Shown here one piece after another: positions 296 to 22,799 of a DNA stretch of 48,613 nucleotides. This stretch comes from Dehalococcoidia bacterium (GTDB lineage Bacteria > Chloroflexota > Dehalococcoidia > GIF9 > AB-539-J10), in NCBI GenBank assembly GCA_030610855.1, contig JAUWQY010000011.1:1-48613 (forward strand), given 5' to 3'. The position numbers and the translations under genes are program-made. The first letter of the stretch is position 1. The number at the start of each line of letters is the position of its first letter. The notes under the pieces are model-generated. The model saw nothing but the letters and a program-made list of their open reading frames with translations. It was not told the origin of the DNA and did no database searches.

Positions 296-3200
296 ATGGA
301 AGAGATAAGGATCGGCGTTTACATCTGCCACTGCGGACTGAACATCGCTGGCACGGTGAATGTGGAAGACGTAGCAAAGTACACTGCCACTCTGCCTAAC
401 GTAGTAGTCTCTCGTCACTACAGGTATATGTGTTCTGATCCGGGGCAGGACCTCATCAGGAGCGACATTAAGCACCTTGCGCTGAACCGCGTTGTGGTCG
501 CTTCCTGCTCCCCGAGAATGCATGAGCTCACATTTCGCAAGACTGTTGAGAGTGGAGGACTGAATCCCTATCTCTACGAGCATGCCAACATCAGGGAGCA
601 ATGTTCCTGGGTCCACGATGATAGGAAACTGGCTACCAATAAGGCGAAGGATTTGGTGAGGGCGGCCGTAATGCGAGTTCATCACCATGAGCCTCTGGTG
701 ATCAGGGAGGTGCCTCTTAATCCCAACGTGTTGGTTATTGGGGGTGGGATTGCAGGGATGCAGGCGTCGCTCGATATTGCCAATGGACAGAAGAAGGTGT
801 ATCTGGTAGAGAGGGAGCCCAGTATTGGCGGGCGTATGGCACAGCTGGACAGGACGTTTCCCACTCTCGACTGTGCTGAGTGTATTCTCACGCCGAAGAT
901 GTCCGATGTGGGGCATCATCCTTTTATCGAGCTCCTGGCCTATAGCGAGGTGGAGGAGGTCTCCGGCTCGATAGGTGATTTCAAGGTGAAGGTGAGGAAG
1001 AAAGCGCGTTACGTGGACGTGGACAAATGCGTCGGCTGCGGAGATTGCGAGGAGAAATGTCCCCGCAGGACAGGTAGTGAATATGAAATGGGTCTGGCAG
1101 AGCGGGGAATGGCCTATATTCCGTTTCCTCAAGCCATCCCCAATGTTGCCACCATCGATCGGAGGGAGGAAAGGCCCTGCAAGGCAGCCTGCAAGGAAGC
1201 CTGCCCGATTCATATGAATGTGCTGGGCTATGCCTCTTTGATCAAGGAAGGGAGATTCGAAGAGGCTTACGAGGTTATAAGAAGAACCAATCCGCTACCT
1301 GCGGTATGCGGTAGGGTCTGCTATGCCCCTTGTCAGGAGGCCTGTAACCGGGGGCAATTCGATGAACACATAGCCATCAGAGAGCTAAAACGCTTTGCTG
1401 CCGACCAGGAACTGAAGATGGGTAAGGGAAAGGCTGTACCGGTGGAAAGGACCAAAGAGGAACAGGTGGCCATTGTCGGCTCCGGTCCAGCCGGTCTAGC
1501 CTGTGCCTACGATCTGGTGAGGCAGGGCTATCCAGTTACGGTGTTTGAGTCTGGCCCTGAGGCCGGAGGTCTACTGCGCTGGGGTATCCCCGAATACCGA
1601 CTGCCCAAAAAGATGCTCAGTAACGATATAAGCTATATACAGGATTTGGGTGTAGAGATTAAGACGAATACCCCGGTGAAAAACCTCAGTGAGATCTTCG
1701 ACCAGGGCTACAAAGCCGTTTTCCTGGGCACGGGTGCTGGCATGAGTCAAAGGATGGGGATTCCGGGTGAGAATGCCCCCGGAGTCTTTCATGCCCTTGA
1801 TTTCCTGAAGCAGGTCAACTTTGGCGTTGAGGTCGACCTGGGAAGCAAAGTGGCGGTCATCGGTGGCGGTAATGCGGCTGTTGATGCGGCTCGAGTAGCC
1901 CGGCGCCTCGGTGTTGAAGATGTAACTGTGGTTTATCGTCGCGGCCGTGATGAGATGCCCGCTATCCCCAGTGAGATTGAAGAGATGGAACATGAAGGAG
2001 TGAAGATTGAGTTCCTGGCAGCGCCAGTCAAAGTACTATCTGACAATAAGGGGGTCACCGGGATTCAGTGTATTCGTATGGAGATGGGCGAACCTGATGC
2101 CAGCGGTCGCCGACGCCCCGTACCCGTCAAGGGCTCTGAATTCACGATAGAGGTTGACCATGTGATCATGGCTATCGGCCAGAGCGTGGATAAGGCCGTG
2201 CTACCCGAAGGTCTAGCCTACACTGACTGGGGGACCCTCTCCGTTGACCCGGTTACTCTGCAAACTAACATTGACGGCGTGTTCGCTGGGGGCGATGTAG
2301 TCTCGGGTCCGGCTGATGTTATTGGCGCAATAGCTACCGGTAAGAGGGCGGCTTGCTCCATAAACGCATACCTGAGAGGAGAGGAGCTAAGCATTGAGGA
2401 AGGCGGGAAGGTGGAAAAGCTCAGCGAAGAGGAACTCGCCAGAATCAAGCAGCGCTTTGCATCTCGAAAGAGGGTGAGAGCGGGCAAACTGGAGCCGGAG
2501 AAGCGGATCGATAGCTTTGAAGAAGTTGAGCAGACTTACTCGCCCGACGAAGCTCAGGAGGAAGCCGAGCGCTGTTTGGCCTCAATGGTGGAGGGATGTT
2601 TTGAGTGCGGTGAATGCAAGCAGGTATGTGAGGCCAAGGCCATAGATTTCGAGCAGACCGATCAGATCGTCGAGCTGGAGGTCGGCTCGATCATCGTAGC
2701 TACCGGCTACGACCAGTTTGATTCGTCGGTGATACCTCAATATGGATACAAGAGATACGCCAACGTCTTAACCGGGCTTGAATTTGAGAGACTAACCTGT
2801 GCCGCAGGCCCGACTGAAGGAAAGATCCTGTTGAAGGACGGTCGGCCGCCAGAAAGTGTGGCCATTGTGCACTGTGTGGGCAGCCGGGACCAAAACTATC
2901 ATGAGTACTGCTCCAGAGTATGCTGCATGTATGGGCTCAAATATGCTCATTTGATAAAAGAACTCGCCAATGCTGAAGTATATGAATTCTATATTGACAT
3001 GCGTTGCTTTGGAGAAGGCTACGAAGAGTTCTATAAGCGCGTGTCGGAGGAGGGGGTGAATTTCATACGGGGAAAGGTGGCCAAGATTACAGACGAGGCC
3101 GTGATCGATGAAGAGAAGGGCAAGCTGATTGTGGTCAGTGAGGATACTCTTCTCGGCAAGATGATACGGGTCCCGGTGGACATGGTTATACTGTGTTCTG

Positions 3201-3679
3201 CCCTGGAGGCACGCTCCGACGCCGAGAATGTGGCCAGGCTCTTCAATCTTAATCGTAGGGCGGATGGCTTCTTCCTTGAGAGGCATGTCAAGCTCGATCC
3301 TGTGGCCACCCCGACAGACGGCATTTTTATCGCTGGCTGCTGTGAAGCTCCAAGAGATATTCCTGATACTGTGGCGCAGGCCGAGGCAGCAGCCGCCAAA
3401 GTCCTGTCGCTGATAAGCAAGGGTACTGTGACACTTGAGGCTGCTATCTCAACTGTCGATGAAGCTATCTGCCACGGATGCGGACGCTGTGAAGAGGTGT
3501 GTACGTTTTCTGCTCCCAAGGTTATCAGCAAGGACGGCAATCTGGTCTCAAGCATAAACGAAGCCTTATGCAAAGGATGTGGTGCGTGTGCCGTGGTCTG
3601 CCCCACGGGAGCAATAACAATAAGGCATTTCACCCCGGATGAGATACTGGCTCAAGTTGCTGCTCTGACGGAGGCGTAA
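296..3679 (+). CDS. hdrA: HdrA-like flavoprotein with inserted GltD/NfnB-like module
   Basis: This 1127-residue protein is a heterodisulfide reductase subunit A, the flavin- and iron-sulfur subunit that bifurcates electrons in the soluble cytoplasmic HdrABC complex. Residues 1-140 are the HdrA N-terminal domain (GVYICHCG). The FAD site VLVIGGGIAG is near 146, the cluster motif DCAEC near 192, and a 4Fe-4S motif CVGCGDCEEKC near 245. Residues of about 288-768 are a glutamate-synthase small-subunit/NfnB-like insertion with its own cysteine clusters and two nucleotide sites (VAIVGSGPAG near 391, VAVIGGGNAAVD near 520). HdrA sequence then resumes at CFECGECKQVC. Two C-terminal 4Fe-4S motifs lie near 1059 and 1092. 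Ordinary HdrA is about 650 residues. MvhD follows 2 bases later. Assignment is firm; substrate and NAD(P) preference are not visible. Confidence 0.92.
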   Translation: MEEIRIGVYICHCGLNIAGTVNVEDVAKYTATLPNVVVSRHYRYMCSDPGQDLIRSDIKHLALNRVVVASCSPRMHELTFRKTVESGGLNPYLYEHANIREQCSWVHDDRKLATNKAKDLVRAAVMRVHHHEPLVIREVPLNPNVLVIGGGIAGMQASLDIANGQKKVYLVEREPSIGGRMAQLDRTFPTLDCAECILTPKMSDVGHHPFIELLAYSEVEEVSGSIGDFKVKVRKKARYVDVDKCVGCGDCEEKCPRRTGSEYEMGLAERGMAYIPFPQAIPNVATIDRREERPCKAACKEACPIHMNVLGYASLIKEGRFEEAYEVIRRTNPLPAVCGRVCYAPCQEACNRGQFDEHIAIRELKRFAADQELKMGKGKAVPVERTKEEQVAIVGSGPAGLACAYDLVRQGYPVTVFESGPEAGGLLRWGIPEYRLPKKMLSNDISYIQDLGVEIKTNTPVKNLSEIFDQGYKAVFLGTGAGMSQRMGIPGENAPGVFHALDFLKQVNFGVEVDLGSKVAVIGGGNAAVDAARVARRLGVEDVTVVYRRGRDEMPAIPSEIEEMEHEGVKIEFLAAPVKVLSDNKGVTGIQCIRMEMGEPDASGRRRPVPVKGSEFTIEVDHVIMAIGQSVDKAVLPEGLAYTDWGTLSVDPVTLQTNIDGVFAGGDVVSGPADVIGAIATGKRAACSINAYLRGEELSIEEGGKVEKLSEEELARIKQRFASRKRVRAGKLEPEKRIDSFEEVEQTYSPDEAQEEAERCLASMVEGCFECGECKQVCEAKAIDFEQTDQIVELEVGSIIVATGYDQFDSSVIPQYGYKRYANVLTGLEFERLTCAAGPTEGKILLKDGRPPESVAIVHCVGSRDQNYHEYCSRVCCMYGLKYAHLIKELANAEVYEFYIDMRCFGEGYEEFYKRVSEEGVNFIRGKVAKITDEAVIDEEKGKLIVVSEDTLLGKMIRVPVDMVILCSALEARSDAENVARLFNLNRRADGFFLERHVKLDPVATPTDGIFIAGCCEAPRDIPDTVAQAEAAAAKVLSLISKGTVTLEAAISTVDEAICHGCGRCEEVCTFSAPKVISKDGNLVSSINEALCKGCGACAVVCPTGAITIRHFTPDEILAQVAALTEA

Positions 3680-3681
3680 TA

Positions 3682-4110
3682 ATGGCTGGATTTGAACCTC
3701 AAATCATTGCTTTTTGCTGCAATTGGTGCACCTATGCTGCTGCTGACCTGGCTGGGACAAGCCGCGTTCAGTATCCGGCGAATGTCAGGATTGTACGGGT
3801 GATGTGCAGTGGCATGGTGAATCCTATATACGTGCTGAAGGCCTTTGAGGGTGGTGCCGACGGCGTTCTAATCGCGGGTTGTCATCTTACCGATTGTCAC
3901 TATATAGACGGCCCTGTGAAGTGCGATGCCGCGGTTGACAAACTGAGAAAGATGCTGCATGTGCTCGGTCTGGAAGATGAACGTTTGAGGCGCGAGATGA
4001 TATCTACCTCTGAAGGAGTGGTATTCGCTCGGGTAATCAAGGAAATGGTAGAGCAACTCAAGAAGTCGGGTCCCTCACCTCTCAAAGTCAAGATGGAGGC
4101 TCTGGCGTGA
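3682..4110 (+). CDS. mvhD: MvhD/FlpD-type [2Fe-2S] electron-transfer subunit
   Basis: A 142-residue protein of the MvhD (methyl-viologen-reducing hydrogenase delta) family, which docks on HdrA and delivers electrons to it from a hydrogenase, formate dehydrogenase or Flx-type dehydrogenase. The family pattern is plain: FCCNWCTYAAADLAGTSR near the start, then MCSGM and AGCHLTDCHY, giving the five or so cysteines expected for a [2Fe-2S] cluster. It starts 2 bases after the preceding HdrA stop and overlaps the next gene by 4 bases, so it is translationally coupled to both. No hydrogenase large subunit is present in the window. A fused version of this gene and the next occurs at 11908-13491. Confidence 0.93.
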   Translation: MAGFEPQIIAFCCNWCTYAAADLAGTSRVQYPANVRIVRVMCSGMVNPIYVLKAFEGGADGVLIAGCHLTDCHYIDGPVKCDAAVDKLRKMLHVLGLEDERLRREMISTSEGVVFARVIKEMVEQLKKSGPSPLKVKMEALA

Positions 4111-5255
4111 ACTTAGAGGACATTATTCAGAAGACCAAGACTTACTATTGCCTGGAGTGCGGCAAGTGCACAAGCATATGTCCCGTCGCTAGATATGATT
4201 CAGGGTTCTCTCCGCGGATGATTATTGAGCATGCCCTTCTGGGCTTTGAGGATGACTTGGTTCAGAACAAGAAACTCTTTTCCTGCCTGACCTGCTATAC
4301 CTGCCAGCCGGAATGTCCCAGTGATGTTGACTTTCCCGTCTTCGTGCGTGAAGCAAGGAGCATAGCGCAGGACAACGGGCAATACGGTATCTGTGCTCAC
4401 TCCGGACAACTGCAGTCTCTGGCGAGGCTCATGACAAGCCCCGCTATCAAGCAGAACAGACTGGAATGGCTTTCCAAGGAGTACCGCGTTTCAGAAGACA
4501 GTGACGTCCTTCTCTGGGTGGGGTGTGCCCCCTATTTCGAGCCCATCTTTGAGGACCTGGAGTTCAGTGCTCTCGACATAATCAGGGCGAGCCTCAAGAT
4601 CATGAACCTGTTGGGAATCGAGCCCAAGCTACTTCCTAATGAGCGGTGCTGCGGTCATGATGCACTCTGGACTGGCGACGTCGAGACATTTAAGAGACTG
4701 GCTGAGCACAATGCCACACAGATCAAGGAGGCAAAGGTCAAGAAGATAGTCTTTTCCTGTCCCGAGGGTTATCGCACATTCAAACTGGACTACCCCAACC
4801 ATGTCGACCTGGGTTGTGAAGTACAGCATCTTTCTGAATTCTTGGCCGAGAAGATGGGGCAAAACGGACTGAAGTTTAAGGAGATCAAGAAGAAGGTCAC
4901 CTATCAGGACCCTTGCAGGTTAGGAAGGCACTTAGGCGTCTATGATGCCCCGCGGAAGGTGCTTGAGTCGATTCCTGGCATAGAACTGATTGAGATGAAA
5001 CACAGCGGACGGGAGTCCATTTGCTGCGGCACCAGTGCCTTTACTAATTGCGACTCGTATTCCAATTTGCTGAGAGCTGAGAGGTTATCTGAGGCCGCGG
5101 CCACGGGAGCAGACGTGCTCATAACTGCCTGTCCTAAATGCCAGACCCATTTTAGATGCGCCATGACGGACAAAGGGGAGGAGCATCGACCAACTCCGAA
5201 GATTGAGATTATGGATCTGGCAAACCTGGTAGCAGATGCCATTGGAGAGGAATAA
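4107..5255 (+). CDS. hdrD: HdrC-HdrB fusion (HdrD-like) disulfide reductase subunit
   Basis: A 382-residue protein that joins HdrC and HdrB, the parts carrying electrons to, and catalysing, disulfide reduction. Residues 1-95 are HdrC-like with two 4Fe-4S motifs (CLECGKCTSICP, CLTCYTCQPECP). Two CCG domains follow, WVGC...CCGHDALW and DPCRLGRH...CCGTSAF...CPKC, which in HdrB hold the non-cubane clusters. The start is GTG at 4107, overlapping the mvhD stop. The last base of its stop codon is the first base of the next start. Methanogen HdrD is also an HdrC-HdrB fusion but sits with a membrane cytochrome, which is absent here. The native disulfide is unknown in a bacterium lacking coenzymes M and B. 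Confidence 0.9.
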   Translation: MNLEDIIQKTKTYYCLECGKCTSICPVARYDSGFSPRMIIEHALLGFEDDLVQNKKLFSCLTCYTCQPECPSDVDFPVFVREARSIAQDNGQYGICAHSGQLQSLARLMTSPAIKQNRLEWLSKEYRVSEDSDVLLWVGCAPYFEPIFEDLEFSALDIIRASLKIMNLLGIEPKLLPNERCCGHDALWTGDVETFKRLAEHNATQIKEAKVKKIVFSCPEGYRTFKLDYPNHVDLGCEVQHLSEFLAEKMGQNGLKFKEIKKKVTYQDPCRLGRHLGVYDAPRKVLESIPGIELIEMKHSGRESICCGTSAFTNCDSYSNLLRAERLSEAAATGADVLITACPKCQTHFRCAMTDKGEEHRPTPKIEIMDLANLVADAIGEE

Positions 5256-7987
5256 TGACTAACGGTGAGAATGGACGCAAATCCGTACTAGTAGTCGGTG
5301 GTGGCATAGCCGGGATGCAGTCTTCAATTGACCTGGCTAATATGGGCTTTCAGGTCTATCTGGTGGAAAAGGCACCCAGCATCGGGGGCAGAATGGCGCA
5401 ATTGGACAAGACGTTTCCCACCAACGATTGCGCTATGTGCATCCTTGCCCCCAAGATGATGGAGGCTAATTCGCATCCCAATATTGATCTCCTCACTTAT
5501 TCTGAGGTGGAAAAGGTCTCCGGTGAGGTGGGCAAGTTCGAAGTCAAGATAAGGAAGAAACCAGCTTTTGTTGATTGGGACAAATGCACGGGATGTGGCC
5601 TCTGCGTGGAAGGGTGCCCCGTCACCATACCAAACGAATTCGACGTTGGGGTGGGAACAAGAAAAGCTATCTACATATTCTTTGCTCAGGCTGTTCCCAA
5701 GAAATGTGTGATAGACAAGAGGGAAGATAGACCCTGTAAAGCGGCATGCATAGACGCTTGCCCGGTGCATACCAATGTGCCCGGATATCTCAAGCTCATT
5801 GCAGAGGGGGAGTTCAAAGCGGCGTATAAGCTCATCAGGGAGACGAATCCTTTCCCCGCCGTTGTCGGGCGGGTATGCTATGCACCTTGTGAAAAGGCCT
5901 GTAATCGCGGAGAACTAGATGAGCCGCTGTGTATCCGCGACCTGAAGAGGGTTCCCTCCGATCAGTGGAATATCGAAGAACTGGAAGTGCCGGTGGTTGC
6001 GAAGACGGACAAGAAAGTAGCGGTCATAGGTGCAGGCCCTGCCGGTCTTGCGGCTGCCAATGATCTGGCCCTGAAGGGTCACAGTGTGACGGTTCTGGAA
6101 GCCCTTCCCGAACCCGGAGGTATGCTTCGTGTTGGCATACCTGAGTATCGCCTTCCCAACGGCATTCTGCGCCAGGAAATAGGCTACATTGAAAAGCTTG
6201 GCGTGGATATAAAGACCGGCGTGCAAGTTGGCAGGGATATTACCCTCAAGAAACTGAAGGAAGACTACGATGCCGTCTTCCTTGCTGTTGGAGCACACGG
6301 CGGCATGCGGCTGGGAGTGGAGGGAGAGGATATTCCCGGAGTAATGGAGGGGATAGGATTTCTCCGTGCGGCAAGTCTCGGGCAGAAGGTGAATGTTGGA
6401 AAGCAGGTGGCGGTGATCGGCGGCGGAAATACGGCTATCGACTGTGCCTGCACGGCAATGCGACTGGGAGCAAAAGAAGTAACCATCGTTTATCGTCGTT
6501 CGCGCGCTGAGATGCCTGCCTCCGCGGAGGAAGTAACGGCAGCAGAAAAGGAAGGGATAAAGATCGAGTTCTTGACTACTCCGATCGGCTTCTCTGCCAG
6601 GAACAAGAAGCTGGCCGGTATGGAGTGTGTGCGGATGAAACTCGGGGAGCCAGATGCCAGCGGTCGTCCCCGACCTATCCCCATCGAAGGTTCTGAATTC
6701 ACCATTCCGGTGGATACGGTGATTGCTGCCTTGGGACAAGTGGCGGAAACAGATTTCGTTGAGGAGTTAGGAGTTTCGCTTTCCAAGAGAGGCACGATAG
6801 AAACCGATCCTAAGACCGGGGCCACCAACGTTGAAGGGTTATTTGCCGGCGGCGATGTAGTTACCGGACCAGCTTACGTGATCGATGCTATTGCGGCAGG
6901 GAAGAAGGCAGCTCGATCTATCGACCAATACTTGAACGGACAAGCTCTTGAACCTGAGGAACCGGCAAAGGAACCGGAGAAGTTTTCGAAGGAAGAGATA
7001 GAAGACCGCAAGAAGCGCTTTCCTGCTAGAGACAGGGTGAAGGTGAGGGAGGAGCCCGTTAAGAAGAGGGTGCAGGACTTCCGTGAAGTGGCTCTGGGAT
7101 ACTCGGTAGAGGAAGGCAGAGAGGAAGCTTCACGCTGTCTTGCCGGACAAATAGAAGGATGTATTGAATGCCGTGAATGTGAACGGCGATGTGAGCCGGA
7201 TGCGATAGTCTATACGATGAAGGATGAGACCATTGAACTCGACGTAAGCGCGATAATAGTCGCTACGGGACTCGGCCTATACGATATCTCACCACTAACT
7301 GAGTACGGCTATGGAAAGATCAAGAACGTGATTACTGCCATGGAATTCGAGAGATTGACTGCGGCATCCGGCCCCACTATGGGAGAATTGAGGCGAGCTT
7401 CGGATGGCAGGATACCTGAGAATATAGCTTTTATCCAATGTGTCGGCTCTCGGGATCACAGGCATAAGGTTTATTGTTCCAGCGTCTGCTGCATGCATGC
7501 CACCAAGGAGGCGATGCTTGCCTACGAGCATCGTCCAGGGACAAAATCGACTATATTCTACATGGATATGAGAGCTGTAGGTAAGAGATTTCAGGAGTAC
7601 ATTCTGAGGGCGAAGAAAGACTACAATGTCACGTATATCAGGGGGCGGCCGGGCAGGATTGAGGTTAACCCTGAAAATGAGAACCCGATTATCTGGTATG
7701 AGGAAACTACGAGCGGAGAAGTGAAGAAGTTTGAGGCAGAACTAGTGGTTCTTGCCCAGGCCATGGTGCCTCAAATCAGCGAAGAACTGGCAAGAACACT
7801 AGGTGTAGAGTTAGATGAAGAAGGCTTTGTAAAGACTCCCGACAAGTTGCTTCGGCCGCTGGATACTACAAGGCCTGGCATATTTGCCTGTGGCTATGTC
7901 CATAGTCCCCGCGATATCCCGGATTCAGTAACTCAGGCCTCGGGGGCAGCAGGCAGGGCAGCTGAAGCGATAGCAGGAGGCAAGTAA
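5255..7987 (+). CDS. HdrA core with GltD-like insertion, lacking N-terminal and C-terminal HdrA domains
   Basis: A 910-residue flavoprotein that starts directly at the HdrA FAD domain (VLVVGGGIAGMQ near residue 11), so the usual 140-residue HdrA N-terminal domain is missing. DCAMCILAPKM near 58 and CTGCGLCVEGC near 111 are HdrA signatures. Residues of about 154-636 are a GltD/NfnB-like insertion at the same position as in the 296-3679 protein, with KVAVIGAGPAG and VAVIGGGNTAIDC. HdrA sequence resumes at CIECRECERRC near 637 and ends without the C-terminal double ferredoxin. The gene is coupled to the preceding hdrD by a one-base overlap. The next gene carries exactly the missing end domains, so the two probably act together, in a way that recalls QmoA and QmoB. 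Function is inferred from domains only. Confidence 0.87.
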   Translation: MTNGENGRKSVLVVGGGIAGMQSSIDLANMGFQVYLVEKAPSIGGRMAQLDKTFPTNDCAMCILAPKMMEANSHPNIDLLTYSEVEKVSGEVGKFEVKIRKKPAFVDWDKCTGCGLCVEGCPVTIPNEFDVGVGTRKAIYIFFAQAVPKKCVIDKREDRPCKAACIDACPVHTNVPGYLKLIAEGEFKAAYKLIRETNPFPAVVGRVCYAPCEKACNRGELDEPLCIRDLKRVPSDQWNIEELEVPVVAKTDKKVAVIGAGPAGLAAANDLALKGHSVTVLEALPEPGGMLRVGIPEYRLPNGILRQEIGYIEKLGVDIKTGVQVGRDITLKKLKEDYDAVFLAVGAHGGMRLGVEGEDIPGVMEGIGFLRAASLGQKVNVGKQVAVIGGGNTAIDCACTAMRLGAKEVTIVYRRSRAEMPASAEEVTAAEKEGIKIEFLTTPIGFSARNKKLAGMECVRMKLGEPDASGRPRPIPIEGSEFTIPVDTVIAALGQVAETDFVEELGVSLSKRGTIETDPKTGATNVEGLFAGGDVVTGPAYVIDAIAAGKKAARSIDQYLNGQALEPEEPAKEPEKFSKEEIEDRKKRFPARDRVKVREEPVKKRVQDFREVALGYSVEEGREEASRCLAGQIEGCIECRECERRCEPDAIVYTMKDETIELDVSAIIVATGLGLYDISPLTEYGYGKIKNVITAMEFERLTAASGPTMGELRRASDGRIPENIAFIQCVGSRDHRHKVYCSSVCCMHATKEAMLAYEHRPGTKSTIFYMDMRAVGKRFQEYILRAKKDYNVTYIRGRPGRIEVNPENENPIIWYEETTSGEVKKFEAELVVLAQAMVPQISEELARTLGVELDEEGFVKTPDKLLRPLDTTRPGIFACGYVHSPRDIPDSVTQASGAAGRAAEAIAGGK

Positions 7988-7988
7988 A

Positions 7989-9668
7989 GTGGAAGAACCT
8001 CGCGTAGGTGTTTTTGTCTGCCATTGCGGCATCAATATCGGGGCATATGTGAAGGTTCCGGACCTTGTCGAATATGCCAAGAAGCTACCAAATGTAGTGC
8101 ATGCCGAGCGCAACCTGTTTACCTGCTCCGAGGAAGGGATTTCAGCGATAAAGAAAGCGATCAAGGAGCACAATCTAAACCGGGTCGTAGTAGCTTCCTG
8201 TACCCCCAGAACCCATGAGCAGCTCTTCCGAGCTGCCTGCGAAGAGGCGGGCCTGAACAAATACCTCTTCGAGTTTGTTAACATAAGAGACCAATGCTCT
8301 TGGGTGCATATGCGTGAGCCTGAGAAAGCTACGGAAAAGGCCGGAGACCTCATAAGAATGGGAATAGCCAAGGCCAGGTTGCTGGAGCCGCTGCAAGAGA
8401 TTGAGATAAAGGTGACTCCTGCTGCCCTGGTGATTGGAGGGGGAGTTGTCGGGATGGAGGCAGCTTTGAACTTGGCCAGACAGGATTTCGACGTTCATCT
8501 GGTGGAGAAGGAATCAGAGCTCGGGGGGACTCTTCGCAGTATCAACAAGCTCTTTCAAACAAGCGAGGAAGCAGAGAAACTGATCAAGACGCTTGTTGAA
8601 CAGGTCAAAAGCCATCCCAAGATTTACACTCATCTTTCATCTAAGGCCAAAGAGGTAACCGGATTTATAGGCAACTTCGATGTCAATGTGGATGAGAAGG
8701 GAGAGGAGTGCAAATTCAACGTGGGTACTATTATAGTAGCCATCGGAGCTGAATCGTTAAGACCGACGGGTCAGTATGGCTATGGGAAGATGACTAATGT
8801 ACTCACTCAGCTTGAGCTTGAGGATCACATGAAGAGAGGCGAGCCCGTGGGCGAGAATATTGTAATGGTGAATTGTGTCGGCGCTCGTGTTCCTGAGAGA
8901 ACCTACTGCGGTAGAATCTGCTGCATGACGGCAATAAAGAATGCCTCCCTCATTAAGGAATCAAATCCAAAGGCGAAGGTCTGGATATTGCATCGAGACC
9001 TCATGACGTATGGTGTGGATTTCGAGAGATACTATCGAAAAGCCATGGAACTGGGGGTCAGATTCATCAGGTATAGCTTAGAAAGGCCTCCCGAAGTCAT
9101 CGGCGAGGGAAAGGTCGAAAGGATAAGAGTGTACCATGAATTATGGAGAAGGGAAATAGAACTCCCCTGCGATATGCTTGTTTTGACTACTCCCCTAATC
9201 CCCGCCGAGGATAGTCAGAACATCTCCAAGATGCTTAAGGTCTCCTTGGACGAGTTCGGTTTTTTTCTGGAGGCACACCTGAAGCTCCGTCCTGTGGAGT
9301 TTGCCATGGACGGAGTCTATGTCTGTGGCTCAGCACGCTGGCCTACAGATGTAACTGAGGGAGTTTCGCAAGCGTATGCGGCTGCTGCCAAGGCGGCCGG
9401 CCCACTGAGAATGGGCTATGTCAAGGCTGAGGCGATAAACGCGTCTGTTAATGAGGTTGAATGCACAGGCTGTGGGCTTTGCGAACTCCTGTGTCCCTTT
9501 CAGGCTATTGAGCTTCAGCTCAAACGTGACAGGATGGTGTCCCACGTCAATGAAGCGGTGTGTAAAGGCTGCGGCACGTGTTGTGCTGCCTGCCGCTCAG
9601 GAGCTATCACCATGCACCACTTCACTGATGAGCAGATTCTAGCACAGGTAGAAGCTCTATTTGGCTAA
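7989..9668 (+). CDS. HdrA/QmoB-like flavoprotein with N-terminal domain and C-terminal ferredoxin
   Basis: A 559-residue HdrA relative with a GTG start one base after the preceding stop. It has the N-terminal HdrA domain (GVFVCHCGINIG), a FAD site ALVIGGGVVGME near 146, and a C-terminal pair of 4Fe-4S motifs (CTGCGLCELLC near 492, CKGCGTCCAAC near 525). It lacks the cysteine-rich CILTPKM segment and the internal ferredoxin present in ordinary HdrA. This makes it complementary to the preceding 910-residue protein. The layout is nearer to QmoB than to HdrA, but there is no MvhD domain at its end and no QmoC in the window. It is probably an electron relay in the same complex. It is the last gene of the first Hdr set. 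Confidence 0.87.
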   Translation: MEEPRVGVFVCHCGINIGAYVKVPDLVEYAKKLPNVVHAERNLFTCSEEGISAIKKAIKEHNLNRVVVASCTPRTHEQLFRAACEEAGLNKYLFEFVNIRDQCSWVHMREPEKATEKAGDLIRMGIAKARLLEPLQEIEIKVTPAALVIGGGVVGMEAALNLARQDFDVHLVEKESELGGTLRSINKLFQTSEEAEKLIKTLVEQVKSHPKIYTHLSSKAKEVTGFIGNFDVNVDEKGEECKFNVGTIIVAIGAESLRPTGQYGYGKMTNVLTQLELEDHMKRGEPVGENIVMVNCVGARVPERTYCGRICCMTAIKNASLIKESNPKAKVWILHRDLMTYGVDFERYYRKAMELGVRFIRYSLERPPEVIGEGKVERIRVYHELWRREIELPCDMLVLTTPLIPAEDSQNISKMLKVSLDEFGFFLEAHLKLRPVEFAMDGVYVCGSARWPTDVTEGVSQAYAAAAKAAGPLRMGYVKAEAINASVNEVECTGCGLCELLCPFQAIELQLKRDRMVSHVNEAVCKGCGTCCAACRSGAITMHHFTDEQILAQVEALFG

Positions 9669-9920
9669 GGGAATTATGACGACTAATGCCGATTACCATG
9701 GTTCCGGAACAGGCGGTTACTGAGTTATCTTCGGTTTGTCTACGACCAGGTACTTACTGCCCCATAGTTGACTGCATGAATCAGATTGGTTCTCCTTCCC
9801 CGGTAGGTGGAAATCAGAGGGGAGTTGGCGGAGTGCACCCCAACACTAACCCTGAACCCTCCCTCAACGGAGAGGAATCTTGTGCGAGATTATGCCGGCG
9901 GACGTAACTAGAAAGCGACT
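9669..9920. other. 252-base gap inside the Hdr locus with a degenerate palindromic repeat
   Basis: The gap separates the first and second Hdr gene sets. A 73-codon open frame at 9686-9907 has no family likeness and no convincing ribosome binding site, so I do not call it. Around 9833-9880 the sequence AACCCTCCCTCAACGGAGAG resembles a worn copy of the CCCTAACCC/CTCCC-loop-GGGAG palindromic repeats spread through many bacterial genomes. A related copy lies at 36420-36450. A TTGACT occurs at 9767 but I see no good -10 behind it, so a promoter here is possible but unproven. Confidence 0.4.
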
Positions 9921-9926
9921 GTGCAT

Positions 9927-11915
9927 ATGGAAGATGAGAAGAGGATCGGAGTCTACATCTGTCACTGTGGGCTGAACATCGCCGGCACGGTTGACGTGGA
10001 AGAGCTAGCGCAATATGCTGCTGCGTTGCCTAACGTAGTGGTCTCCCGTGACTATCGGTATCTATGCTCGGATCCCGGGCAGGACCTTCTTAAGAATGAT
10101 ATCAAGGAACTGGGGCTCAATCGGGTCGTCGTCGCCTCTTGTTCGCCAAGAATGCATGAACATACCTTCCGCAAAGCTTGTCAGGCTGCCGGTTTGAACC
10201 CTTATCTATATGAGCATGCCAATATCAGGGAGCATTGTTCATGGGTGCATGCCGATAAGGAGCAGGCTACCCAGAAAGCCAAGGACCTGCTTCGGGCTGC
10301 TGTGCAACGTGTTCACTATCATGAGCCTCTGGAGGTTAGAGAGGTACCGGTCAATCCTAACACTCTGGTTGTGGGTGCCGGCATTGCCGGTATAGAGGCG
10401 GCCCTGAAGATAGCCAACGGGGGCCACAAGGTGTACTTAGTGGAGAAAGAGGCATCAATTGGCGGGCATATGATTCAACTCGATACTACTTTTCCCACCC
10501 TTGATTGCTCTGAATGTATTATGACCCCTAAGATGAGCGAAGTAGGGCATCATCCCAATATCGAGCTTCTGGCTTATAGCGAGGTGGAGGAGGTATCGGG
10601 GTCTGTGGGCAACTTCAAGGTAAAAGTAAGGAAGAAGGCGAGATATGTGGATGAAGACAAGTGTATTGGATGCGGTATTTGTGAGCAAAAATGCCCCTGG
10701 AAGGTGCCAAGCGAGTTCGAAGTGGGCCTGGGAAAGAGGGGGGCCGTTTATATTCCTTTTGCTCAAGCCATTCCCAATATCGCCACAATAGACAAAGACC
10801 ACTGTGTCTATATCCAGTCGGAGGGAAAGAAATGCGGCGCCTGTATCAAGTTCTGTGACGCTGGGGCCATAGATTTCGAGCAGAGGGACCAGATCGTTGA
10901 GTTAGAAGCAGGTGCCATTATCCTCGCTACAGGATATGATGTTTTCGACCCGAGTCAGATACCTCAATATGGCTACCGGAAATACGATAACGTCATCACC
11001 GCTCTTGAATTTGAGAGGATGACCTGTGCCTCGGGACCGACTTCGGGGACAATCCGGCTTAAAGATGGGAAAACACCCCGGAGCGCGGCTATCATTCATT
11101 GCGTTGGCAGCCGCGATAAGAACTACTGTGAGTACTGCTCCAGAATCTGCTGCATGTATGCACTGAAACACGCTCATCATCTCAAGGAGAAAACAAATGC
11201 CGATGTCTATGGACTGTATATCGATATGCGCTGCACGGGGGATGGTTATGAGGAGTTCTATAAGCGTGTTTCCGAGGAAGGTGTCATCTTCATAAAAGGT
11301 AAGGTAGCTAATGTGACTGATAGGGCCATTACGGAGGAAGAGAAGGGAAAACTGGTCGTGATAGCCGAGGATACCCTACTGGGGAAGATGATGCGCATCC
11401 CCGTGGATATGGTTATTCTATGTCCCGCCATGATACCCCGGTCTGATGCTACGGATGTCGCCAGGAAGTTCTCCATCACTCAGAAAGCGACTGGTTTCTT
11501 TCTGGAACGTCATGCCAAGCTTGAGCCTCAAGCTACAGCCGTAGACGGGATATTCATCGCGGGTTGCTGCCAGTTTCCCAAGGACATTCCTGACTCTGTA
11601 TCTCACGGGAGGGCCGCGGCTGCGGCTGCGCTGGAACTAATAGATAAAGGCAGTGTTACAACTGAGGCCGCAATATCCTGTGTGGATGAGACTCTATGCC
11701 ATGGCTGTGGAATATGCGAGGAAATCTGTGAATTTCAGGCTCCCAGGGTGGTGCTCAAAGATGGGAAGAGGGTATCCACAGTAAATGAGGCGTTGTGCAA
11801 GGGGTGCGGTGTCTGTGCTGTGGCCTGTCCTAGCGGAGCGATGTCCATAAAGCACTTCACCCGTGATGAGATAGCTACCATGATCGAGGCGCTGACTGCG
11901 GTAGAAAATGGCTGA
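9927..11915 (+). CDS. hdrA: HdrA, heterodisulfide reductase subunit A (uninterrupted form)
   Basis: A full-length ordinary HdrA of 662 residues. It has the N-terminal domain (GVYICHCG), FAD site TLVVGAGIAGIE near 150, DCSEC, CIGCGICEQKC near 246, KCGACIKFC near 303, and the C-terminal ferredoxin pair CHGCGICEEIC and CKGCGVCAVAC. It is close to the 296-3679 protein over its whole length but lacks the GltD-like insertion. The sequence passes straight from IPNIATID to the KKCGACIKFCDAGAIDFEQ stretch. A GTG lies two codons earlier at 9921, but the ATG at 9927 matches the start of the paralog better. It overlaps the next gene by 8 bases. It should hold the bifurcating FAD and pass electrons between ferredoxin, the MvhD domain and HdrB. 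Confidence 0.93.
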   Translation: MEDEKRIGVYICHCGLNIAGTVDVEELAQYAAALPNVVVSRDYRYLCSDPGQDLLKNDIKELGLNRVVVASCSPRMHEHTFRKACQAAGLNPYLYEHANIREHCSWVHADKEQATQKAKDLLRAAVQRVHYHEPLEVREVPVNPNTLVVGAGIAGIEAALKIANGGHKVYLVEKEASIGGHMIQLDTTFPTLDCSECIMTPKMSEVGHHPNIELLAYSEVEEVSGSVGNFKVKVRKKARYVDEDKCIGCGICEQKCPWKVPSEFEVGLGKRGAVYIPFAQAIPNIATIDKDHCVYIQSEGKKCGACIKFCDAGAIDFEQRDQIVELEAGAIILATGYDVFDPSQIPQYGYRKYDNVITALEFERMTCASGPTSGTIRLKDGKTPRSAAIIHCVGSRDKNYCEYCSRICCMYALKHAHHLKEKTNADVYGLYIDMRCTGDGYEEFYKRVSEEGVIFIKGKVANVTDRAITEEEKGKLVVIAEDTLLGKMMRIPVDMVILCPAMIPRSDATDVARKFSITQKATGFFLERHAKLEPQATAVDGIFIAGCCQFPKDIPDSVSHGRAAAAAALELIDKGSVTTEAAISCVDETLCHGCGICEEICEFQAPRVVLKDGKRVSTVNEALCKGCGVCAVACPSGAMSIKHFTRDEIATMIEALTAVENG

Positions 11916-13491
11916 ATTTGAACCTCGTATTATCGCTTTTGCCTGCAACTGGTGCACGTATGCGGCAGCAGATATAGCTGGCACAAGCCGTATCCAGTAC
12001 CCTCCCAATGTAAGAATCATAAGGGTTATGTGCAGCGGCATGGTGGCTCCCGAGCATATTTCCCTGGCGCTTGAGAATGGGGCTGACGGCGTTTTGGTGG
12101 CCGGTTGTCATCCTGGAGACTGTCACTATATTTCGGGCAACTTAAAGGCGGACGAGAGGTTCCAGATGGTCAGCAAGGTGGTCAGCATCCTCGGTGTTGA
12201 GAGCCAAAGGGTAAGGCTTAAGTGGATAGCCACGTCGGAAGGACCGGTATTTGCCCAGACTATCAAAGACATGGTAAACGAGCTCAAGGAATTGGGCCCT
12301 TCGCCCTTCAAGGAATCTCGATCAGCTGACCGAGCAAGACCTGCTCTCGCGCTAGAGGACATGCTTCAGGAAACCAAGGCTTACTACTGTCTGGAGTGTA
12401 GCAAATGCACCAGCATATGTCCCGTGGCCAGGTATGATCCGTCCTACTCTCCGCGAGCTATGATTGAGAACGCTGTGTTGGGGTTGGGAAGTGAGAATAT
12501 TCATGATAAGAAGCTCTTCTCTTGTCTTGCTTGTTATGCCTGCTCTCTGAGATGTCCCAGTGACGTTGACTATCCGGCTTTCATGCGGAGGACTAGAGAG
12601 ATGGCCTTTCGGAGTGGTGAGTATGGCTGTCCGGCTCACGGTGGCTTCCTGCACTCCGTCACACGGCTCATGTCAAGGTCCCCTTATAAGCAGAAGAGAC
12701 TGGGATGGCTTACTGGGAAATACAAAGTCTCTGACCAGAGCGATACAATGTTCTTCGTCGGGTGCACCCCTTATTTTGAACCTATTTTCGGGTATCTGGG
12801 GGTGAGAGCACTCGACATCACAGAGGCAAGTCTGAAGATACTCAACAGTTCGGGAGTGGAGCCCATGTTACTTGCGGATGAAAAATGCTGCGGACACGAT
12901 GCGCTGTGGACTGGCGATACAGAGACCTTTCAGAGGCTGGCCGGGCACAATACAAAGCTAATCAAAGAGGCCGGAACAAAGAAAATCGTATTCTCGTGTC
13001 CTGAGGGTTATCGGACACTTAAGCTGGACTATCCTGCGCACGGGTTTGAACTTGGCTGTGAATTGCAGCATATTTCCGAGTTTGCAGCCGAGAAGATAGA
13101 GAAGGGGGAATTGAAATTCAAGGAGTTCAGCAAGAAGGTAACTTACCAGGACCCATGCCGATTAGGGAGACATCTGGGCGTCTATGACTCGCCGAGAAAA
13201 GTGCTTGAGGCTATTCCCGGGTTAGAGTTGATCGAGATGGAGAAGAATAGAGAATGCGCTCTTTGCTGCGGGACGAGCGCTTTCACCAACTGCGGTCTGT
13301 ACTCTCATGAGATGAGGGTGGATCGATTGCGCGAAGCAGAAGCCAGTGGTGCTGAAATCCTGGTGACTAGCTGCCCGAAGTGCCAGGTGCACTTTGAATG
13401 TGCCATGAATAACAGGAGTGAGGAAAAGGGCCCTGATATAGACATCGAGGTAGTGGACCTGGCGAACCTTGTGGCGGGTGCTTTAGCATAA
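11908..13491 (+). CDS. MvhD-HdrC-HdrB triple fusion
   Basis: A 527-residue single chain. Residues 1-135 are MvhD (FACNWCTYAAADIAGTSR, MCSGM, AGCHPGDCHY). A short linker follows, then HdrC-like 4Fe-4S motifs (CLECSKCTSICP near 161, CLACYACSLRC near 206) and two HdrB CCG domains (CCGHDALW near 328, CCGTSAF near 453, then CPKC). It matches, end to end, the two overlapping genes at 3682-5255. It starts 8 bases inside the HdrA gene before it. Fusing the electron entry subunit to the disulfide reductase subunit fixes their stoichiometry at one to one. A gap of 49 bases separates it from nfnA. The family is clear; the physiological disulfide is not known. Confidence 0.92.
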   Translation: MAEFEPRIIAFACNWCTYAAADIAGTSRIQYPPNVRIIRVMCSGMVAPEHISLALENGADGVLVAGCHPGDCHYISGNLKADERFQMVSKVVSILGVESQRVRLKWIATSEGPVFAQTIKDMVNELKELGPSPFKESRSADRARPALALEDMLQETKAYYCLECSKCTSICPVARYDPSYSPRAMIENAVLGLGSENIHDKKLFSCLACYACSLRCPSDVDYPAFMRRTREMAFRSGEYGCPAHGGFLHSVTRLMSRSPYKQKRLGWLTGKYKVSDQSDTMFFVGCTPYFEPIFGYLGVRALDITEASLKILNSSGVEPMLLADEKCCGHDALWTGDTETFQRLAGHNTKLIKEAGTKKIVFSCPEGYRTLKLDYPAHGFELGCELQHISEFAAEKIEKGELKFKEFSKKVTYQDPCRLGRHLGVYDSPRKVLEAIPGLELIEMEKNRECALCCGTSAFTNCGLYSHEMRVDRLREAEASGAEILVTSCPKCQVHFECAMNNRSEEKGPDIDIEVVDLANLVAGALA

Positions 13492-13540: not shown

Positions 13541-14419
13541 ATGTACAAAATAGTGAAGAAGGAGGTTCTTGTACCCAACACAGTTTACCTTAAAGCAGAG
13601 GCTCCGGAGATTGCCCGCAAGGCTGAACCGGGGCAGTTCGTAATATTGCGGGTGGATGAGGTTGGGGAGAGGTTCCCTTTGTCGCTCGCTGGTTGGGATA
13701 AGAAGGCAGGGACGCTCGAAGTCCTCTTTCTTATCATGGGCAGAAGCACGATGAAACTCTCCGCTCTTGGAGAGGGCGACTGTATTAGGGATATAGTGGG
13801 CCCCCTGGGTAGGCCCACGGAAATCGAATCCTACGGCGACACTCTGTGTGTCTGTAGCACATTTGGTGTCGGTCCCATGATACCGCTGATCAAGGCTCTC
13901 AAGAAGAAAGGCAACAAGGTCACGTCAGTCATGGAAGCAAAAGACGAGGCCTTTCTATTCTGGGAGGATAGGTTGAAGAGCGTGAGCGATGAGACACACG
14001 TGGTTCTGGGAGATGGGAGTCGCGGGGAATACAGGCGGGCGAGCGAGTTCCTCACAAAGCACCTGAAATCGGGGAACAAGGTTGACAGGGTCTTTGCGTT
14101 CGGGCGCGTATTTATGATGATGGAATGTTCACAGGCGACAAAGCCGTTTGGGGTCAAGACGATTGTTGGTCTCACTCCGATAATGGTTGATGGTACAGGC
14201 ATGTGCGGCTGCTGCCGGGTCTCTGTGGGTGGCGAAACGAAGTTTACCTGTGTTGATGGTCCTGAATTCGATGGCCATTCGGTGGACTGGGGACTCCTCG
14301 TCAAGCGGAAACGAGCTTATTTGAGAGAAGAGGCGCTCGCATTTGATCTATGGCAACTTGATAAATTGCGTCGGATCGCCGAATTATCGGAACTGCCCGG
14401 GCGGGTCTCTGTGGTGTGA
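13541..14419 (+). CDS. nfnA: NfnA/SudB-type FAD, NAD-binding and [2Fe-2S] subunit
   Basis: A 292-residue protein of the dihydroorotate-dehydrogenase electron-transfer (PyrK)/NfnA/SudB family. It has an N-terminal FAD-binding barrel (GQFVILRV, FPLSLAG), a nucleotide-binding middle (STFGVGPMIPLIKAL), and a C-terminal [2Fe-2S] motif GMCGCCRVSVGG with a last cysteine in FTCVDGPEF. With the next gene it forms the NfnAB pair, which bifurcates electrons from NADPH to NAD+ and ferredoxin, or runs in reverse. The same pair is also described as sulfide dehydrogenase SudAB, and sequence alone does not separate the two roles. It overlaps the next gene by 4 bases. Confidence 0.88.
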   Translation: MYKIVKKEVLVPNTVYLKAEAPEIARKAEPGQFVILRVDEVGERFPLSLAGWDKKAGTLEVLFLIMGRSTMKLSALGEGDCIRDIVGPLGRPTEIESYGDTLCVCSTFGVGPMIPLIKALKKKGNKVTSVMEAKDEAFLFWEDRLKSVSDETHVVLGDGSRGEYRRASEFLTKHLKSGNKVDRVFAFGRVFMMMECSQATKPFGVKTIVGLTPIMVDGTGMCGCCRVSVGGETKFTCVDGPEFDGHSVDWGLLVKRKRAYLREEALAFDLWQLDKLRRIAELSELPGRVSVV

Positions 14420-15834
14420 AAATGACGGAAAAACCAAAACTGAATTTGAATCGTGTGCCGATACCGAAGCAGGCTCCGGAAGCGAGAAGAGAGAACTTCA
14501 GTGAAGTAGCCCTGGGATATGCCGAAGAGCAGGCTCTTGAAGAAGCCAGTCGTTGCATTGACTGCAAGAAACCCGGCTGCAAGGACGGTTGCCCGGTTTA
14601 TGTAGACATTCCCGGGTTCATAAAGGCAATACAGAATGGCGATATGCCTGAGGCGGTAAGGATACTCAAGAGCAAGAACAGCCTGCCCGGAATCTGCGGT
14701 CGTGTTTGCCCTCAGGAAACACAGTGCGAGCTGACCTGTAACCTGGCCAAGAAGGATGCGCCCATTGCTATCGGCAGGCTGGAGCGCTATGTAGCTGATT
14801 GGGAAATAGCTCACCCGGAAGCTATTAGACGAGGAGAGGAGGGGGTGAACTGCAATGGCAGGAGGGTGGCCGTTGTCGGTTCCGGTCCGGCAGGACTAAC
14901 CTGCGCCGCCGACCTGGCCAGGTTGGGATATGAAGCCGTTATCTTTGAGGCACTTCATGTTGCTGGTGGAGTACTCATGTATGGCATCCCCGAGTTCAGG
15001 TTGCCCAAGACGATCGTTCAGGGTGAGGTTGATTATGTCAAATCACTGGGCGTGGAAATCAGACTCAACCATGTGATCGGCAAAATAGCTACCGTCGATG
15101 AGCTTCTGGAAAACGGATTTGATGCTGTCTTCTTGGCTCCCGGGGCCGGGGCGCCAATGTTCCTGGATATACCCGGGGAGAACCTGAGCGGCATATACTC
15201 TGCCAACGAGTTCCTTACTCGGACAAACCTGATGAAAGCATATCTCTTTCCTCAGTATGATACTCCGATACAGGTGGGAAAACGGGTGGCAGTGTTCGGT
15301 GCCGGAAACGTAGCTATGGATGCCTCAAGATGTGCACTGAGACTTGGGGCAGAAGAAGTATACATTGTCTATCGGCGCTCCAGGACGGAGATGCCTGCCA
15401 GACTTGAAGAGAGGGAAAATGCTGAAGAGGAGGGAGTCATTTTCAAGCTTTTGACCAATCCGAGCAGGTTTCTTGGTGATCAACGAAGTATAGTCAGGGC
15501 GGTGCAGTTACATGAAATGGAACTGGGTGAGCCTGATGCTAGTGGTCGGCGACGGCCTATCCGAAAGCCGGACTCTGAGTTCATGATGGAGATAGATACC
15601 GCGATTCCCGCTCTGGGCACAAGGCCTAATCCCATCATTCCCTCAACGACCAAAGGGCTTGAACTCACTAAGTGGGGCACCGTACTGACCGATGAGGCCA
15701 CCGGTAGAACAAGCAAAGAGAGAGTCTGGTGTGGCGGAGATATGGCTACTGGGGCAGCTACCGTTATCAGCGCCATGGGAGCAGCACGGCGAGCAGCTAT
15801 CTCAATTGACATCTACTTAAAGGGGGGCAACTGA
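14416..15834 (+). CDS. nfnB: NfnB/SudA, GltD-like NADPH-binding subunit
   Basis: A 472-residue protein of the NADPH-dependent glutamate synthase small-chain family, the NfnB partner of the preceding gene. The N-terminal cysteine domain (CIDCKKPGCKDGCP, CGRVCPQETQCELTC) holds two 4Fe-4S clusters. The FAD site is VAVVGSGPAGLTCAAD near 154, and the NADPH site VAVFGAGNVAMDASRC near 293 is followed by the family stretch YIVYRRSRTEMPAR. No glutamine amidotransferase large subunit is nearby, so a role in glutamate synthesis is unlikely. The start may be GTG 14416 or ATG 14422. It is the free-standing form of the module inserted in the HdrA-like proteins at 296 and 5255. Confidence 0.9.
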   Translation: MKMTEKPKLNLNRVPIPKQAPEARRENFSEVALGYAEEQALEEASRCIDCKKPGCKDGCPVYVDIPGFIKAIQNGDMPEAVRILKSKNSLPGICGRVCPQETQCELTCNLAKKDAPIAIGRLERYVADWEIAHPEAIRRGEEGVNCNGRRVAVVGSGPAGLTCAADLARLGYEAVIFEALHVAGGVLMYGIPEFRLPKTIVQGEVDYVKSLGVEIRLNHVIGKIATVDELLENGFDAVFLAPGAGAPMFLDIPGENLSGIYSANEFLTRTNLMKAYLFPQYDTPIQVGKRVAVFGAGNVAMDASRCALRLGAEEVYIVYRRSRTEMPARLEERENAEEEGVIFKLLTNPSRFLGDQRSIVRAVQLHEMELGEPDASGRRRPIRKPDSEFMMEIDTAIPALGTRPNPIIPSTTKGLELTKWGTVLTDEATGRTSKERVWCGGDMATGAATVISAMGAARRAAISIDIYLKGGN

Positions 15835-16002: not shown

Positions 16003-16416
16003 ATGAACAACTCTGAACCAAAGATAGTAGCTTTCTGCTGCAACTGGTGTTCATATGCGGGTGCTGACCTGGCCGGTACATCAAGAATGCAGTACCCTGC
16101 CAACCTGAGAATAATCAGAGTGATGTGTAGCGGTAGAGTGAATCCCGTTTTTGTCCTCAAGGCGCTTCGTGTTGGCGCTGACGGGGTGCTGGTGCTTGGT
16201 TGCCATCCGGGTGATTGCCACTATCTGACCGGCAACTACCGTACCCGCCGTCGGCTGTCTATCACCATGAAATTCATGGAGTATATGGGAATCGAACCCG
16301 AACGTATACAGGTCAGCTGGTGTTCTGCCTCGGAAGGAAGCAGATTTGCCGAGGTGGTTACCGAAGTAACGGCTGATCTGAAGAGAATAAGCCCCAATCG
16401 ATTATTCAATGACTAG
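16003..16416 (+). CDS. flxD: FlxD, MvhD-type [2Fe-2S] subunit
   Basis: A 137-residue MvhD-family protein (FCCNWCSYAGADLAGTSR, MCSGR, LGCHPGDCHYLTGN), the third such domain in the window. In this place, directly before flxC, flxB and flxA, it fits FlxD, the subunit that hands electrons from the NADH-oxidising Flx part to HdrA. The ribosome binding site GGGATG lies 5 bases before the ATG, just past the terminator-like hairpin. It overlaps flxC by 8 bases. In known flxABCD-hdrABC clusters flxD is last in the group; here it is first. Confidence 0.88.
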   Translation: MNNSEPKIVAFCCNWCSYAGADLAGTSRMQYPANLRIIRVMCSGRVNPVFVLKALRVGADGVLVLGCHPGDCHYLTGNYRTRRRLSITMKFMEYMGIEPERIQVSWCSASEGSRFAEVVTEVTADLKRISPNRLFND

Positions 16417-17371: not shown

Positions 17372-17375
17372 ATAC

Positions 17376-22031: not shown

Positions 22032-22033
22032 TA

Positions 22034-22723
22034 TCATCTCCTCTGCTGTAGCCTGTTCAAGACGATGTTGATGACGAGTGCCAGGAACAGAAGAATGATG
22101 CCCAGCGCCAGAGCCATTTCTAGTTCACCTCTGGTTGTCGCCAGCGAGAGGGCTGTAGTCATCACCCTGGTAAACCCTCGTATATTGCCGCCGACCATCA
22201 TGGCAACCCCGAGCTCTGACAGGGCTCTACCGAAGCCCAGTATAAGTGCGGCCAGAACGGCATATCTTGCTTCTCTTAGTACAAGCAGCACGAGTTGAAA
22301 GCCGCTGGCGCCAAGCGAGGTAGCTGTCTCTACAACCTCTTTGCTTACTCCGCTCAAAGCCGAAATGGTCAAGCCAAGCAATATAGGTGTGATGAGTATC
22401 ATCTGGCCAATCACCATGGCAGCGGGAGTAAAGAGTATGCCAAGCTCACCGAGCGGTCCGGCCCGGGAAAGGAGTACGAAAACGAACAGGCCAACGATCA
22501 CGGTGGGTACGCTGAATAATGTCTGGATGATATTTATTAAGACCCTTTTTCCATGGAACCGACGGAAGTGTATCAAGCTCGCCAGTGGTAGGCTGATAAG
22601 AGAGGCCAGAAGACAAGAGGTCCCCGCGATCCTCAAGGTCCTTGCGGCTATCTCCATGACCTCGGGGTCGAAGGAGATTATGAGTTCCATGGCCTTGGTA
22701 AGGCCGTACCATATTTCAGTCAA
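22034..22723 (-). CDS. tupB: Tungstate/molybdate ABC transporter permease
   Basis: A 229-residue membrane permease with about five hydrophobic segments and the ABC-docking EAA loop around SLGASGFQLVLLVLREARYAV. It pairs with TupA and TupC. The frame opens with a TTG at 22723; an ATG at 22690 is the alternative, neither with a strong ribosome binding site. It ends inside the start region of tupC. The substrate-binding gene lies 76 bases upstream. Confidence 0.9.
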   Translation of the reverse strand: MTEIWYGLTKAMELIISFDPEVMEIAARTLRIAGTSCLLASLISLPLASLIHFRRFHGKRVLINIIQTLFSVPTVIVGLFVFVLLSRAGPLGELGILFTPAAMVIGQMILITPILLGLTISALSGVSKEVVETATSLGASGFQLVLLVLREARYAVLAALILGFGRALSELGVAMMVGGNIRGFTRVMTTALSLATTRGELEMALALGIILLFLALVINIVLNRLQQRR

Positions 22724-22799
22724 TTGCTGTCACCCACTTTGATATGCTATCTCTGACAACAGGCTTCGTATTTGCCATTGGACGTAGTCCTGATTCCTG

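Follow-up and report, generated by a model that had tools for sequence, protein, structure and literature searches.

Architecture of the Hdr operon

The analyzed stretch of DNA (48,613 nt, referred to as the window) is part of contig JAUWQY010000011.1 of a Dehalococcoidia bacterium. The genome is of the metagenome type, consists of 76 contigs and is 95% complete. In the following, loci of relatives carry labels beginning with L or G, and contigs of the genome itself labels beginning with C; L203 and L204 are loci of the genome itself. The window contains a heterodisulfide reductase (Hdr) operon, whose genes are all located on the + strand. At 296-3679, an HdrA of 1127 amino acids (aa) with an inserted GltD-type module is encoded, followed by mvhD (3682-4110) and an HdrD-like hdrCB with a 4Fe-4S domain plus two CCG domains (4107-5255). 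A second GltD-inserted HdrA of 910 aa (5255-7987) lacks the N-terminal domain and the C-terminal ferredoxin domain and retains the equivalent of Cys197 of the M. wolfeii HdrA. Its module comprises residues 156-634 (5720-7156). The adjacent 559-aa HdrA (7989-9668) has the N-terminal domain and lacks the insert, the ferredoxin domain and Cys197. By this domain content it is probably the complementary partner of the 910-aa protein. An uninserted type I paralog of 664 aa (9921-11915), an mvhD-hdrCB fusion (11908-13491), nfnA (13541-14419) and nfnB (14416-15834, 472 aa) follow. The open reading frames for the 1127-, 910-, 664- and 472-aa proteins, the last a free NfnB, are thus present as described in the initial annotation.

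The first half of the 1127-aa protein (residues 1-289; 296-1162) comprises the N-terminal Fe-S domain, the first part of the thioredoxin-reductase-like domain, which binds flavin adenine dinucleotide (FAD), and ferredoxin motif 1 (C245-C255). C196 is the equivalent of M. wolfeii Cys197. The module spans residues 290-767 (478 aa; 1163-2596). The second half (residues 768-1127; 2597-3676) contains ferredoxin motif 2 (C768-C778), the bifurcation residues E831 and K882 and the C-terminal 2[4Fe-4S] domain. From Pfam and NCBIfam matches and the alignment to the HdrA structure 5odc, the protein was classified as a type III, A10-like and HdrL-like HdrA.

Insertion site and junctions

Pfam and NCBIfam searches found HdrA domains flanking a block of the GltD type in the 1127-aa protein (Fer4_20 at 295-376, Pyr_redox_2 at 390-682). 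In the 910-aa protein the order is likewise HdrA, Fer4_20 plus Pyr_redox_2, and HdrA again, while no such block is present in the 664-aa and 559-aa proteins. When aligned to the 1127-aa protein, structure 5odc covers residues 1-290 and 766-1122 and skips exactly the intervening part. The insert is therefore placed between both cluster motifs of the HdrA ferredoxin domain (C245-C255 and C768-C778), and both motifs are kept. At the left junction, IPNVATID is followed by RREERPCKAAC, and at the right junction MVEG is followed by CFECGECKQVC; the uninserted protein continues from IPNIATID to KDHC and then to KKCGACIKFC. The block of about 480 residues between two HdrA halves, its junction letters and a second insert at the same point of the 910-aa protein, all proposed before, were confirmed by these searches.

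An assembly or annotation artefact was considered, given the metagenome-type genome with its 76 contigs. Both junctions were found again in relatives from other assemblies (L021, L022; G300, G307), whose full-length identities are 87% and 84%, and the 1127-aa chain is a single open frame. The same architecture is present in Anaerolineales, Zixibacteria, WOR-3, Desulfobacterales, Syntrophobacteraceae and Thermoplasmata, with Dehalococcoidia as the nearest named relatives. Because relatives from other assemblies show identical junctions, the suspected assembly error at 1157 and 2597 was excluded, and an artefact of any kind has a negligible probability.

An AlphaFold2 model of the 1127-aa chain (39 sequences) had a predicted local distance difference test score (pLDDT) of 89.7 and a predicted template modeling score (pTM) of 0.76. 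Using Foldseek, the HdrA of 8rvu was matched across the insert with a target-normalized template modeling score (TMt) of 0.91, so that the HdrA fold is kept around the inserted block. For the GltD region the best E-values were obtained for NfnABC and StnC chains, with NfnB behind.

Type of the inserted module

The module had been described as a whole GltD/NfnB unit with sites for FAD and NAD(P). It is indeed of the GltD type and has both sites, but the name NfnB does not hold. The core (residues 385-695; 1448-2380) contains the FAD motif GSGPAG, the NADP-type site GGGNAA plus YRR, and Arg435 at the position of Pf NfnL R201 and StnC R239. A nucleotide site GGGNAA or GGGNTA plus YRR is of the NADP type, as in NfnB and StnC, with YRR absent in a few relatives; a GXGXXG motif was not found at this site and represents the FAD motif in these inserts. 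The right end (residues 700-767; 2393-2596) corresponds to the NfnB N-terminal helix in a permuted position: residues 10-47 of the T. maritima NfnB match the C-terminal part of the insert, just as they do in StnC and 9bov, and the remainder is collinear.

The left end (residues 290-380; 1163-1435) carries the cysteines C295/C299/C303 and C342/C346/C350 as well as Lys365 at the position of StnC K170. At this ligand position of the proximal [4Fe-4S] cluster, a Lys was found in 24 of the 24 HdrA inserts first examined and also in the newly fetched fusions. All free NfnB have a Glu instead (LERY in the unpermuted NfnB at 14416), and StnC has Lys170. The Arg linked to NfnB bifurcation was conserved in all sequences compared and therefore does not discriminate between NfnB and the StnC type.

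In the tree of GltD-type modules, a phylogeny already called for by the initial annotation, the free NfnB including that at 14416 form a clade of their own (support 100), and the inserts of the window are located outside of it. NfnB, including the copy at 14416, was therefore rejected as the insert donor on the separate clade and the Lys versus Glu ligand; nfnA and nfnB at 13541-15834 would form a separate transhydrogenase. By these sequence characters, the inserts of the window are best classified as GltD modules of the StnC/PRK12771 type rather than NfnB. The permuted segment and the Lys at the K170 position are both present; the fusion to a NuoG domain is absent, the module being fused into HdrA instead. 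The module would work like that of StnC, but the 1127-aa protein itself is no StnC. For the StnC GltD it was shown that NADPH is oxidized, that K170 is needed and that no bifurcation takes place (PMC10482914). The permuted helix and Lys365 in place of Glu argue for a non-bifurcating NADP(H) relay in the inserted module as well.

Proposed cluster ligands and paired cysteine changes

The ligand pattern of dihydropyrimidine dehydrogenase (DPD) and StnC was the basis for assigning the cluster ligands. The proximal cluster would be bound by C303, C342, C346 and K365, and the distal one by C295, C299, C350 and C760. The latter would adjoin the ferredoxin motif C768-C778.

The majority of fusions have RCLxCGxC at the right end and PCxxxCP at the left end. 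Where the second Cys on the right is lost (RCLA[SGAP]xxxGC), as in the 1127-aa protein, which keeps C760 and has lost the second Cys of the CxxC, and in the 910-aa protein, an additional Cys is present on the left (CKAACxxACP). This pattern was first noticed in an earlier set; among the newly fetched fusions, 7 had both changes, 17 had neither and none was mixed, although these counts come from related sequences and do not represent independent events. The two ends of the insert may hence together build one cluster.

Empty sites, repeated insertion and mosaic structure

The operon of L035 and L037 (HdrB-HdrA-MvhD-HdrCB-910-559-NfnA-NfnB-MvhD) is collinear with that of the window except for the pair of the 664-aa HdrA and MvhD-HdrCB, and carries no insert in its first HdrA. 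In L033, L034, L035, L037, L040 and L042, the first HdrA is 79-83% identical to the 1127-aa protein, compared to 71% for the 664-aa paralog. The paralog had been used to map the edges of the insert; the syntenic uninserted orthologs are the better reference. In L045, an uninserted 445-aa gene is found at the position of the 910-aa gene. The earlier proposal, in which insertion of a module produced a single chain linking the HdrA FAD site with a pyridine-nucleotide unit, is supported and gains strength from these syntenic empty sites.

After removal of the insert, the core of the 1127-aa protein grouped with plain, uninserted Dehalococcoidia HdrA (support 99). A single origin of all A10 HdrA cores was rejected by the approximately unbiased (AU) test (p=2.7e-8), as was a single origin of all GltD inserts when tested on the GltD region (p=0.00026). 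Insertion of GltD into HdrA appears to have recurred.

Within the 1127-aa insert, residues ~290-360 and 700-770 most resemble the type of C54 and the 910-aa protein (77% to C54 versus 46% to the A10 protein of L023). Residues ~375-690 are closest to the A10 protein of L023 and to L044 (75% versus about 60%). Trees built from the ends and from the core of the insert disagreed (AU p=8e-7 and 3.3e-5; the partitions were picked after the identity scan). The module is accordingly likely to be a mosaic, in which the core and the cluster-forming ends differ in ancestry.

GltD modules were also seen in other proteins. An AcsV/RamA-like corrinoid activation protein in L044 (785-4267) and L046 (2330-5104) contains a GltD module that closely resembles the core of the 1127-aa module and has a His at the Lys ligand position. 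A GltD-similar protein with a Gln at this position is encoded near HdrA genes in Bathyarchaeota (L067:7758-9245).

Proposed electron path and alternative explanations

The 1127-aa protein is probably the type III HdrA of an HdrABC-MvhD complex, with the module serving as NADP(H) port on the ferredoxin arm and bifurcation or confurcation confined to the HdrA FAD. NADP(H) would exchange a hydride with the GltD FAD. From there, electrons would pass through the cluster at C303, C342, C346 and K365, the cluster at C295, C299, C350 and C760, and the ferredoxin clusters at C768, C771, C774 and C255 and at C245, C248, C251 and C778 to the HdrA FAD. The ferredoxin arm would in this way be turned into an NADP(H) port. 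The HdrA FAD would stay the sole site of bifurcation or confurcation, with MvhD and HdrCB as the remaining two exits. The position of the insert between the ferredoxin motifs, the intact HdrA FAD site and bifurcation residues, the Lys ligand, the NADP-type site and the paired cysteine changes are in favor of this port, as is the tandem HdrA module of C54 in its Moorella-type context (see below). Together, these findings suggest that the fusion works as an electron port and not as a second electron splitter. Several points weigh against it. No biochemistry is available for any type III HdrA, and NAD+ rather than NADP+ was argued for the archaeal type III sequences (PMC12054007). The cluster ligands are assigned on the DPD and StnC pattern. 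Moreover, the Arg tied to bifurcation in NfnB has a conserved equivalent in Arg435, so that the sequence alone leaves room for bifurcation at the GltD FAD.

In the main alternative, bifurcation has been lost and the protein is a linear oxidoreductase between NAD(P)H and either the HdrB substrate or the partner of MvhD, in which electrons enter at the GltD FAD and are relayed by the HdrA FAD. Electron transfer from NADPH to a disulfide is downhill without bifurcation, and some bacterial HdrABC complexes are probably non-bifurcating according to a review (PMC5861303). Occupation of the ferredoxin arm by GltD may have removed the low-potential exit; blocked access of ferredoxin is expected (PMC12054007). 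However, E831 and K882, which correspond to E356 and K409 of M. wolfeii and are tied to bifurcation at the HdrA FAD, were invariant in 39 sequences, the ferredoxin cluster motifs are kept and the genes for MvhD and HdrCB are still adjacent. The linear enzyme is a possible but rather unlikely explanation. A bifurcating NfnB as insert, giving two bifurcation sites per polypeptide as proposed for HdrA9-11 of anaerobic methanotrophic archaea (ANME-1; PMC9012536), would agree with the GltD fold, its FAD and NAD(P) sites and the conserved Arg in contact with N5. It is difficult to reconcile with the Lys at the proximal cluster in all inserts, the StnC-like permuted segment and the position outside the NfnB clade. 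StnC shares this Lys and Arg and is non-bifurcating at the corresponding FAD (PMC10482914), and the chain carries no fused NfnA-like domain; this explanation is improbable.

The NADP(H) port and a second bifurcation site can be compared directly owing to the Lys ligand and to the occurrence of inserted and uninserted forms in the same place of the operon within one genus (window, G300 and G307 versus G166 and G306). With the NfnB label corrected, the ligand pattern allows such inserts to be recognized.

Comparison to known systems

HdrA proteins with an inserted module were already described as HdrL (2009; PMC2702500), ANME-1 HdrA9-11 (2022; PMC9012536) and type III HdrA (2025; PMC12054007); the additions of this study are the ligand, synteny and mosaic evidence. 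Type III HdrA are defined by an inserted GltD, comprise the classes A9, A10 and A9-TRX-C and were attributed to two separate insertion events; a structural model with GltD beside the ferredoxin domain and a hypothesis for NADH were presented (PMC12054007). The GltD is located between the ferredoxin motifs here as well. The 1127-aa protein matches class A10, which keeps the domains of type I A1 (N-terminal, FAD, ferredoxin and C-terminal ferredoxin). The 910-aa protein matches class A9, which lacks the N-terminal and C-terminal Fe-S domains (A6 pattern). As expected for type III, the core nests among uninserted type I HdrA. In contrast to the published set of nine archaeal sequences, for which NAD+ was inferred (PMC12054007), the window is bacterial and has an NADP-type motif. 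For the archaeal set a GXGXXG motif, taken as a sign of NAD+ preference but not as a defining trait of the type, was reported at the nucleotide site (PMC12054007). The Lys ligand, the ligand swap, the mosaic module and the syntenic empty sites are additional to that description.

HdrL1-3 of Desulfobacterium autotrophicum HRM2 are fusions of Hdr and glutamate synthase adjoining mvhD (PMC2702500), an arrangement also found in the window, the comparison being with the published description. HdrL1 and HdrL3 contain selenocysteine and HdrL1 adjoins dsrABC (PMC2702500), whereas DsrC was not found in the 95% complete genome of the window. DsrC was rejected as HdrB partner for this reason. The inserted architecture is present in Desulfobacterales relatives (L029 and L038), and an HdrL-like protein (RS08730) was described for Desulfurivibrio dismutans (PMC12142623). 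ANME-1 HdrA9, 10 and 11 have an NfnB-like insertion of ~500 aa in the HdrA ferredoxin domain, as in the window. They were regarded as carrying an NfnB that might add a second site of bifurcation (PMC9012536), while the ligand evidence from the window favors a StnC-type module.

StnC and NfnABC (8oh5, 9bov, 9n5u) share the permuted GltD, the Lys as proximal ligand and the feeding of clusters of a separate bifurcating unit. They differ in being fused to NuoG and working with flavin mononucleotide (FMN) bifurcation of the HydBC type, whereas the module of the window is in HdrA. As in FlxABCD-HdrABC, judging from the account of Ramos 2015 cited in PMC12054007, MvhD and Flx-like genes are found downstream in the window operon. 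By the same account Flx feeds HdrA indirectly, while the window also has a pyridine-nucleotide module within HdrA.

Other modules in the HdrA ferredoxin domain

In L039 (7989-12991), nuoE and nuoF interrupt the first HdrA of the operon within its ferredoxin domain, and the C-terminal half of this HdrA is fused behind a HoxU/NuoG-like 2Fe-2S domain. The order HdrA half, NuoE, NuoF and HoxU-HdrA was also found in G273, G197 and G229, with related forms in G214, G128 and G298. Similar arrangements are present in L174, L176 and L178, and L175 has a HoxU-like sequence within HdrA in a single frame. A literature search found no report of such a NuoE/NuoF/HoxU split, which is not proof of novelty.

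The modules at this site are the StnC-type GltD, several times, and NuoEF-HoxU by gene splitting in L039 and in A6-type HdrA, presumably acquired in separate lineages. The ferredoxin domain of HdrA may be a recurrent socket for pyridine-nucleotide modules, which themselves recombine with a compensating cysteine swap; we regard the chances of this generalization as evenly balanced. If true, ferredoxin and NAD(P)H would be interchangeable at the low-potential arm of HdrA within a single genus.

Genome context and neighboring genes

The genome has matches to the Prismane family of the carbon monoxide dehydrogenase (CODH) type and four genes for methylenetetrahydrofolate reductase (MTHFR). On contig C54 (L203:2169-11189), a 1491-aa tandem HdrA with the same GltD module is encoded in the operon MvhD-MetV-MetF-HdrC-HdrA-MvhD, a gene order that suggests a Moorella-type MTHFR complex containing its own NAD(P)H module. 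A NuoF-GltD fusion adjoins MetV and MetF on contig C16 (L204:2933-7680).

Downstream of nfnB, a Flx-like set is located at 16003-19300 (+), consisting of mvhD/flxD, a flxC candidate (16409-17371), a HydB-like flxB and a HydG-like flxA. The Fe-S protein at 16409-17371 had zero NCBIfam matches at E 1e-10, and the name flxC is given from its position only. Near the Hdr operon, a tungstate ABC transporter (TupA, TupB and a WtpC-like protein) with an adjoining moaA is encoded on the - strand of the window (20919-23762).

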